Source: Flavobacteriales bacterium
GTDB lineage: Bacteria > Bacteroidota > Bacteroidia > Flavobacteriales_D > Sanyastnellaceae
Reading direction: 5' to 3'
Length of the DNA stretch: 64,000 bases
NCBI GenBank assembly: GCA_947448135.1
Contig: CANFLZ010000009.1
Coordinates: 1 to 64,000 of the forward strand
This document shows, one piece after another, positions 12,170-14,431 of the stretch. Below the pieces are notes generated by a model that was given only the letters and a program-made list of their open reading frames with translations, was not told the origin of the DNA and did no database searches. Within the stretch, counting starts at the first letter, position 1; each line of letters begins with the position of its first letter. The position numbers and the translations under genes were made by a program.

Positions 12170-12244
12170 AGCCCTGCTCGAAAAAAAAATTAATTCAGAA
12201 TTGTGAAATGTTTGTTGCATCTGCATCAAAATAAAAAATACAAG

Positions 12245-12976
12245 ATGAAAACACTAATCACCCTTTTCCTTTGCTGCTCAGTAGGAGCGGCTTGGAGCCA
12301 AATTTCTGGAAGCATCATGGGAACAGTCAAGGAGACCAACCTCAACACCATTCCTGGGGCGATTGTTTCTGTTGAAAATAGCTTGGGTCAAATTCCCTAC
12401 GGCATTCAAACAGACATCGATGGGCGCTTTCGTATCAATGGCATTGAGCCAGGAACCTACAGTGTCCATTTTAAATTCACTGGAAAAAATGAATTGATCA
12501 AAACCAATGTACAAGTCACCCCTGATAAAATTACATTTGTTGATGCCGTACTTTCCGATGAAGATAAAATGGGAAAAGTATTGGTGATAGAAGAACAGAA
12601 GATTCCATTGATTGATAAAAATGGCGGAACTTTGATCACCATGACAGCCAAAGAAATGACCCATCTTCCCTCTGCACATGGCGGCAATATCAAAAATATT
12701 GTGGCAGGAATGATCTCTGATGTAAAAACCGGAAATCGCGGAGATGAATTGTATTTCAGAGGAAGCCGTGCAGGATCTGTAGTATATTACATCGATGGAG
12801 TGAAGGCTCGGGAAAGCGTTCCCAATGTTCCTTCTTCTGGTATCGCATCCATCTCTGTATACACGGGGGGAATGCCCGCTACATATGGAGATTGTACAGG
12901 AGGTGTTGTTGTTATTAATACCAAAAGCTATCTCCAAGAGTATTACAACAAGATCAACAATAAATTTGAAAAATAA
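12245..12976 (+). CDS. TonB-receptor plug domain protein without a barrel
   Basis: A 243-residue secreted protein. A signal peptide (cleavage near AAWSQ) is followed by a carboxypeptidase-regulatory-like beta-sandwich at about 20-110 (GSIMGTVKETN, DIDGRFRINGIEPGTYSV) and a TonB-receptor plug domain at about 125-230, with YFRGSRAGSVVYYIDGVKA and YGDCTGGVVVINTKSY. In full receptors this is where the 22-strand barrel starts, but the frame stops 17 residues later and the next gene begins immediately, so the protein is plug-only. I chose ATG 12245, which gives the signal peptide directly. Position before a sigma and an anti-sigma-like gene suggests an envelope signalling role; this is inference. 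Confidence 0.85.
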   Translation: MKTLITLFLCCSVGAAWSQISGSIMGTVKETNLNTIPGAIVSVENSLGQIPYGIQTDIDGRFRINGIEPGTYSVHFKFTGKNELIKTNVQVTPDKITFVDAVLSDEDKMGKVLVIEEQKIPLIDKNGGTLITMTAKEMTHLPSAHGGNIKNIVAGMISDVKTGNRGDELYFRGSRAGSVVYYIDGVKARESVPNVPSSGIASISVYTGGMPATYGDCTGGVVVINTKSYLQEYYNKINNKFEK

Positions 12977-13499
12977 AACAACATATGACACCATTTGGGA
13001 AGTGATTCAAAGAGATCCTTCTCTAGTAAACATGGGCCTTTTGTACCAACAATGGGCCCATATTGTCTATGCGGTAGCGTTGAAATACTTGAAAAATAGA
13101 GACGATGCGAATGATGTAGTTTCCGAGATTTTTGAAAAACTCATGCATCATTTTCCTGAGGAAAAAATCGACAATGGCCCCGCATGGTTACACAGTGTCA
13201 CCAAATTCCATTGCTTGATGAAATTGCGCAAGGAAAATGCACAATTCAGACAATTGCACCAAGATCCTTGGCGTGAAGAGGGTGTCAACCAACTTGAACC
13301 CCAGCTCGTGGCGATGGAAAGTGCGCTGTATCAAATTCCCGAAAAGCAACGCCTCTGTATCGAACAATTTTTTCTTTTGAAAAAAAGTTACCAAGCCATC
13401 GCAGATGATTTGGGATTGACGTTCAATGAAATCAAATCACACATCCAAAACGGAAAGAGAAATCTCCGCATTCAACTAGAAAAACAAAATGAACAATAA
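12966..13499 (+). CDS. ECF-type RNA polymerase sigma factor
   Basis: A 177-residue sigma-70 family protein. Region 2 is at about 18-70 (LYQQWAHIVYAVALKYLKN, then ANDVVSEIFEKLMHHF) and region 4 at about 115-172 (LYQIPEKQRLCIEQFFLLKK, then YQAIADDLGLTFNEIKSHI). It lacks regions 1 and 3, as expected for ECF factors. No ATG is placed correctly; TTG 12966, overlapping the plug gene stop by 11 nt, gives a normal N-terminus starting LKNKTTYDTIW. The following membrane protein starts inside its last codons, so the two are translationally coupled as sigma/anti-sigma pairs often are. Target promoters unknown. Confidence 0.83.
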   Translation: MKNKTTYDTIWEVIQRDPSLVNMGLLYQQWAHIVYAVALKYLKNRDDANDVVSEIFEKLMHHFPEEKIDNGPAWLHSVTKFHCLMKLRKENAQFRQLHQDPWREEGVNQLEPQLVAMESALYQIPEKQRLCIEQFFLLKKSYQAIADDLGLTFNEIKSHIQNGKRNLRIQLEKQNEQ

Positions 13500-14406
13500 T
13501 TTGCCCAACATACCGCCCAGCATTGAAGAAATGAAGCTTTGGCAGAAAGGTCAATTTCCCTTGGGCAAGCGTCACGATGAACTTCAGATTTGGTTTGATC
13601 AAGATCCCTTTTTGCAGGACGCTTTAGCGGGCCTGCAGTTGGATCCTGAATTCAGCGGATTTGGTCAGAAAACTCAAAAAACGCCGTCACACAAAAGTCA
13701 TTTCAAGGGTTGGATATTGGGATTGGTTATCGGTTTGGGATGTGCCGTATTAGCGGTGAGCATCTGGAATCCACTTGAAACATCTGTCGAGAAAGTAAGC
13801 TCTTTCAATTCCCCATTATCTCAGGTTGATGTCAATCAAACATCCGAATCAATTCCGACCCAAGAAGAAAAAAAGTCGGCTGTTCAAACCAACCCATCAT
13901 CCGTTCAAAAATTAAACGATGAGCATGTATCCAATTCAAATATTGCCAATGAAACTCCCTTGCGCTCAATGGACGCCCGGTCAGGTCAGCTGAGTTTATC
14001 CAGAACAAATGGCTATCCTTTGGCCAAAGTGAATGTTTGCATTGATGTTCATGGATACGAAGTGTATCCGTACAAAGAAAGGAGTGAAATAAAGACTTTT
14101 GAACTAACCGGAATGCCTGCTGACAATGGGCAAAGCCAAGAACCCAATAAACGCGTTTCCTATTTGACCTATTTAGAAGAAGCCATTGTCGCTTTTCAAG
14201 AGCAAGATTTGGAATTGGCGCAAGATCATTGCGAGAACATATTGCATCAATTCCCCAATGACATCAATGCTTTGTACTTAAAATCAAAATGTGTTTTTAA
14301 TAGCTCTCCTGCTCAATCCTTAAGAGGATTTGAAAAAACACTTTCGTTGAACAACGGTCGTTTAAACGAAAAGGAAATCAAGGAATTCATCCGATTGGCG
14401 CAATAA
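13489..14406 (+). CDS. Anti-sigma-like membrane protein with TPR-like C-terminus
   Basis: A 305-residue single-pass protein. The cytoplasmic N-terminus (1-70) contains DQDPFLQDALAGL at 37-49, a motif I know from Bacteroidota membrane proteins encoded beside ECF sigma factors; the transmembrane helix is at about 73-94. The periplasmic part has a Ser/Gln/Glu-rich linker, a small segment around ARSGQLSLSRTNGYPLAKVN and a C-terminal helical region at about 220-305 resembling TPRs. It overlaps the sigma gene by 11 nt. I infer that it tethers the sigma factor and releases it on a periplasmic cue. No classical zinc anti-sigma motif (HxxxCxxC) is seen, so the assignment is by context. Confidence 0.65.
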   Translation: MNNNLPNIPPSIEEMKLWQKGQFPLGKRHDELQIWFDQDPFLQDALAGLQLDPEFSGFGQKTQKTPSHKSHFKGWILGLVIGLGCAVLAVSIWNPLETSVEKVSSFNSPLSQVDVNQTSESIPTQEEKKSAVQTNPSSVQKLNDEHVSNSNIANETPLRSMDARSGQLSLSRTNGYPLAKVNVCIDVHGYEVYPYKERSEIKTFELTGMPADNGQSQEPNKRVSYLTYLEEAIVAFQEQDLELAQDHCENILHQFPNDINALYLKSKCVFNSSPAQSLRGFEKTLSLNNGRLNEKEIKEFIRLAQ

Positions 14407-14431
14407 AAAAGGCTGCAAATGCAGCCTTTTT
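14405..14431. terminator. Bidirectional intrinsic terminator
   Basis: A GGCTGC/GCAGCC stem with a short loop, flanked by A-runs and T-runs on both sides. It overlaps the stop codon of the anti-sigma-like gene and separates it from convergent glmS. Confidence 0.9.

Follow-up and report, generated by a model that had tools for sequence, protein, structure and literature searches.

The window, a stretch of 64,000 nucleotides from a Flavobacteriales genome, contains an operon of three forward-strand genes, which encode a TonB plug protein without a barrel, an ECF sigma factor and an anti-sigma-like TPR protein. The plug-only gene (12245-12976) specifies 243 residues, comprising a CarboxypepD_reg domain and a plug. 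It is followed by the sigma gene (12966-13499), whose frame is open from 12825 and whose putative TTG start at 12966 gives an overlap of 11 nt with the plug-only gene. The sigma factor matches region 2 (PF04542, 1.5e-10) and region 4 (PF08281, 1.6e-6), and TIGR02937 over the cut-off. The third gene (13489-14406) begins within the sigma gene, with another overlap of 11 nt, and encodes a single-pass membrane protein of 305 residues. A likely intrinsic terminator, GGCTGCA-AA-TGCAGCC-TTTTT (14411-14431, read from the sequence), lies at the operon end, facing glmS. The domain matches confirm the three genes at the positions and with the identities given in the original prediction, and the coupling by overlaps that it described is found at the sigma/anti-sigma junction and, with the putative TTG start, at the plug/sigma junction.

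The plug-only protein begins with a predicted signal peptide at about residues 1-18, followed by the CarboxypepD_reg domain (12311-12553, residues 23-103; PF13620, 2e-14). In the structure model this domain has a transthyretin-like fold, and a fold search gave 5aq0 as its best match (Z 14.5) and the SusC N-terminal extension 9hfj as a further one (Z 12.6). The search with the whole model was dominated by this domain, and families missing from that search carry no weight. The TonB plug domain (12635-12907, residues 131-221; PF07715, 5.8e-9) scores 36.8 bits against a cut-off of 23.9, which places it in the family, and its modelled fold matches the FyuA plug 4epa over residues 120-229 (Z 11.2, rmsd 3.7, 104 aligned). 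The receptor-plug residues R175, D184, G185, P211, A212, G215, D216 and G220 are invariant; G173, P196 and G219 complete the set common to plug-only and full-length plugs. The PF07715 profile is matched to its last position, after which only 22 residues precede the stop. This conserved tail (12908-12973), with the consensus ETKSYFDLYxxW and a predicted helix, replaces the first barrel strands.

The lack of a barrel, as originally predicted, is genuine. A survey of 60 related genomes revealed homologues whose open frames span about 235-300 residues, and these are spread over many genera and several families of the order. A barrel in the same frame was sought in 47 plug-only homologues and was absent from 47/47, all of which end 0-24 residues past the plug. 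The plug-only gene is under purifying selection, with a dN/dS of about 0.07-0.16 for the two pairs that allowed an estimate. An assembly error or a decaying receptor was therefore rejected, on the grounds of the uniformly early stops and the purifying selection. In a maximum-likelihood tree, the plug-only proteins form one group (support 95/46, present in 91% of bootstrap trees), whose sister is a well-supported (98/99) family of full-length receptors of ~1250 residues. All 33 plug-only members scanned carry CarboxypepD_reg. The full-length ~1250-residue paralogue of the window genome (C7:48883) is about 39% identical to the plug-only protein over the N-terminal extension and plug and has the same invariant residues, but it possesses a barrel and lacks the ECF promoter of the plug-only gene. 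This paralogue, of ~1254 residues (L177:4869-13914, contig C7), precedes a 1401-residue FlgD-Ig protein and a PorV-like gene, a T9SS-flavoured set; at other loci, a gene of ~900-1000 residues comes after the full-length paralogue.

Between the two domains of the plug-only protein lies a flexible linker (12569-12616, residues 109-124), modelled with low confidence (pLDDT < 50), which is TonB-box-like, occupies the TonB-box place and may act as a TonB box. Such a linker could allow a free plug to compete for TonB, damping all TonB-dependent uptake while the sigma factor is on. The flexibility of the linker at this position, a VVITA-like sequence in Flavobacterium members and the sharing of the linker region between the plug-only protein and the full-length paralogue all agree with such competition. 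However, the plug-only linker is poorly conserved, P121 being found at 38% against 100% in full-length members, and the TonB-box match in the window is weak, so that competition for TonB is considered very unlikely.

The anti-sigma-like protein has a predicted cytoplasmic domain of three helices (residues 12-19, 27-38 and 40-51; pLDDT about 90 in the structure model). This domain includes the DPFLQDALAGL motif (13603-13635, residues 39-49), in the region of which A45 and G48 are at least 90% conserved among 26 relatives. A transmembrane helix (13705-13764, residues 73-92) is indicated by both the model and the hydrophobic sequence, and a stretch predicted to be disordered connects it to a C-terminal, putatively periplasmic TPR domain (14161-14400, residues 225-304) whose helices have a pLDDT of 94-98. 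TPR families match 21/26 relatives. With sigma regions 2 and 4, a co-encoded single-pass partner and a common promoter, the locus appears from its sequence to encode an ECF sigma factor with its membrane anti-sigma factor.

The three genes were predicted to belong together, and they are indeed co-conserved over Flavobacteriales and in some Bacteroidales. The order plug, sigma, anti-sigma on one strand recurs on most sufficiently long contigs, in many unrelated neighbourhoods, and Bacteroidales MAGs add a fourth gene of ~410 residues to this order. In three groups, Flavobacteriaceae, Crocinitomicaceae and Fluviicola, the plug gene lies by itself. None of the Flavobacteriaceae examined has it next to the pair, and one sigma/TPR-anti-sigma pair was found elsewhere in 11/11 Flavobacteriaceae genomes tested. 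The plug gene is also multiplied, with up to three copies beside a single pair. Among 245 genomes of the order with completeness of at least 90%, 24 unclear genomes were left out; 124 had both plug and anti-sigma, 70 had neither, 21 had the plug alone and 6 the anti-sigma alone, with an approximate E-value cut between plug-only and full-length matches. The corresponding Fisher p of 4e-31 ignores the shared ancestry of the genomes. Across the class, the anti-sigma gene was detected in 83/396 genomes, nearly always as a single copy. At six loci, two or three plug-only genes are clustered, mostly each with its own promoter.

From the regions upstream of relatives' plug genes, a promoter consensus was derived, TTRTGGAAT-N13-GCATC[CT], whose spacer is almost fixed and which precedes 28/30 plug-only loci of the first set. 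In the window, the promoter (12201-12227, forward strand) reads TTGTGAAATGTTTGTTGCATCTGCATC, that is, TTGTGAAAT-N13-GCATC, a variant of TTRTGGAAT-N13-GCATC with a -35-like box TATGGAAT and a -10-like box GCATC, 17 nt before the plug start codon. At most plug genes, the distance between promoter and start codon is 15-70 nt. The promoter scores at stand-alone plug genes in Flavobacteriaceae, Crocinitomicaceae and Fluviicola are mostly 14 to 17.5, to be compared with a shuffled 95% level of 13.0 and a shuffled maximum of 15.5, and the full-length paralogues have no such promoter upstream (scores 10.5-12.5). The same promoter lies upstream of the unlinked sigma/anti-sigma pair in 11/11 Flavobacteriaceae genomes. 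Because this two-part consensus of fixed spacing stands upstream of the operon as well as its unlinked parts, it looks like an ECF promoter. It is new here, and its sequence and placement suggest that the operon's own sigma factor reads it. The ECF motif SM6 of F. psychrophilum (PMC9723704) was rejected as this promoter, since SM6 has a CGT -10 box and does not match; given this mismatch, the start-site map of that species (PMC9723704) leaves the sigma of the present promoter undecided.

A genome-wide scan of 60 genomes gave 66 sites for the pattern and about 5 for a reversed control, and complete genomes have just two to six sites each. One group of targets picked out by the pattern consists of secreted CarboxypepD_reg proteins of ~440 residues, which are relatives of the product of the fourth gene in the Bacteroidales operons. 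The profile of this family has matches in 170 of 245 genomes, and the promoter was found at 30/30 top-ranked ~440-residue loci from the protein profile search, some of which are profile seeds. In the window genome, whose regulon was searched by pattern only, one ~440-residue CarboxypepD_reg gene with the promoter lies on contig C11. Three exact TTRTGRAAT-N13-KCATC matches were obtained in this genome, each upstream of a secreted-protein gene and the window site among them; 18 one-mismatch matches gave no convincing extra target, most of them lying inside other genes. The third exact match belongs to a secreted TPR protein of 371 residues (C55:10002). Among the Flavobacterium targets are miniature plug fragments (101 and 146 residues) and a CarboxypepD_reg/plug-fragment protein of at least 488 residues, VWA-like by eye (L289, L302, L287 set). 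Five promoter targets carry an N-terminal CxxC..CxxC-like sequence of zinc-ribbon type, mostly followed by a CarboxypepD_reg domain. In several members of the window's genus, the -35-like box has TGAAAT in place of TGGAAT, as at 12201-12227 of the window and at four further loci; this variant is found at both the plug operon and the ~440-residue gene, as though the sigma factor and its promoters had changed in step.

Plug genes without a sigma/anti-sigma pair are found in two separate lineages, namely a genus of the window's family (four genomes) and a subgroup of one Flavobacteriaceae genus (eight genomes). In both, the plug-gene promoter is gone (scores 10-12) and the plug frame is intact. 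In the Flavobacteriaceae lineage, the promoter has also disappeared from the ~440-residue gene in 7/7 genomes, whereas 9/10 pair-bearing relatives keep it there and the tenth scores 13.5, just below the cut. From the sequences, these joint losses appear to tie promoter to sigma factor more strongly than the counts do. Eight genomes retain the promoter and have no detected anti-sigma gene, which probably reflects assembly gaps. Three genomes (G191, G001, G004) with a recognisable promoter and no detected pair fit assembly gaps.

These arrangements bear on the original proposal of a role for the plug, in which it would either carry a signal in the periplasm or insert into the barrel of another receptor. 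The tie to an ECF sigma/anti-sigma pair proved real, and the signal-carrier part was weakened by plug genes that are unlinked, multiplied or pair-less. As a sensor, the plug-only protein would be a FecA reduced to N-terminal extension and plug, or would resemble RseB; it would bind the anti-sigma TPR domain and swap partner upon free barrels or ligand. The sensor-like position of the plug as first gene of the sigma operon in Cryomorphaceae-like families and Bacteroidales argues for this role, as does its co-occurrence with the anti-sigma gene. In classical systems, moreover, the receptor N-terminal extension touches the anti-sigma factor, and a signalling domain on its own has an effect on the pathway (PMC9249621). 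Nevertheless, the plug is found unlinked, multiplied or retained without sigma and anti-sigma, the STN and FecR domains are absent, and six genomes have an anti-sigma gene and no detected plug, so that a sensor is rather unlikely. An effector role is more likely, because the plug gene can lie apart from the pair, can number up to three copies per pair, most of them with the promoter, and is kept after loss of the pair. The operon position and the six genomes without a detected plug count against the effector reading.

The comparison with FecI-FecR-FecA signalling shows both likeness and difference. Common to the two are the ECF sigma factor, a plug protein with an N-terminal domain, and an anti-sigma-like partner that crosses the membrane once and has three helices in its cytoplasmic domain. 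In FecA-type signalling, however, the receptor has a barrel, which every plug-only frame examined lacks. The STN domain of FecA-type receptors had no match in the 33 plug-only members scanned, and FecR was not among the matches listed at E up to 0.05 for 26 anti-sigma-like members, which were almost only to TPR families. Without STN, FecR or barrel, the locus is not FecA-type signalling, in agreement with the expected departure from classical TonB-receptor systems. The regulon is also very small in contrast to that signalling, and consists of secreted proteins. Iron-uptake sigmas have no activating effect on the genes that encode them (PMC9249621), whereas the sigma operon here carries its own promoter. 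RpoE-RseA-RseB is an autoregulated sigma operon with a membrane anti-sigma factor and a secreted third protein, and the present locus has the same general plan; RseB, unlike the plug, is a sensor of another fold, and the third protein here looks more like an output.

In two other systems a small protein works in an outer-membrane barrel. T9SS Plug (PF17116, Fjoh_1759) plugs a large outer-membrane barrel, a likeness in working only, the family being unrelated. Identity with it was rejected, as the plug-only protein has no PF17116 match, and T9SS Plug was absent from the matches of a PDB sequence search with that protein; the window genome has a separate PF17116 gene of 457 residues. BamP of Flavobacterium johnsoniae, a CarboxypepD_reg protein of the periplasm, is threaded into the barrel of BamA (PMC12611786). 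Like the plug-only protein it has about 250 residues and an N-terminal CarboxypepD_reg domain, and a part of it enters BamA; unlike the plug-only protein, it has a three-helix C-terminal domain and no plug. The plug-only profile did not match the BamP sequence (PDB 9n2d) at E up to 10, and the ~440-residue family profile touches it at E 0.008. With BamP, Bacteroidota provide an example of a small protein of this general type at work within a barrel.

The second part of the original proposal, insertion into another receptor's barrel, is plausible by this analogy, and docking in a barrel is the leading reading at below even odds. It is favoured by the plug core residues common to full-length receptors together with the BamP precedent. 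A plug fold that now served in the periplasm as a free protein, binding or adapting to a glycan, a peptide or the ~440-residue partner and never seated in a barrel, would account for the predicted helical tail, unlike a barrel start, and for the CarboxypepD_reg domains in partner proteins of the regulon. Yet the residues kept are those in common with barrel-seated plugs, and an adaptor of this kind seems unlikely.

Taken together, the locus is best explained as an ECF operon that regulates itself and serves an envelope response, with the barrel-less plug, most likely a barrel-docking effector, as its main conserved output; to this explanation we assign a probability of about 45%. The sigma factor would be held by the TPR membrane protein and freed by some periplasmic or outer-membrane cue. 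Once free, it would read the TTRTGGAAT-N13-GCATC promoters and raise the output of its own operon, of the ~440-residue CarboxypepD_reg protein and of a small number of further secreted proteins. The plug would be sent to the periplasm, most likely as an effector, and may dock by its receptor-plug surfaces in an outer-membrane barrel or barrel complex, gating or protecting the barrel. That this is a Bacteroidota envelope response under one dedicated ECF sigma, with a diffusible cork closing or retuning vacant or damaged barrels as its product, is a tentative and somewhat doubtful proposal.

The textbook view of a plug domain is that of a fixed part of a TonB receptor. In the present case, a barrel-less plug has persisted across an order and further afield, and forms the principal output of one small regulon. 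Nothing relevant on barrel-less plugs or on such an ECF group was found in the literature searched, whose coverage leaves out most subscription papers, and the data suggest an envelope response, undescribed so far, with a loose plug as its main product. The defined promoter and the short target list make its function directly testable, and the Flavobacteriaceae, in which the regulon occurs, include laboratory models. Such tests would show whether bacteria gate outer-membrane barrels with separately made plugs.
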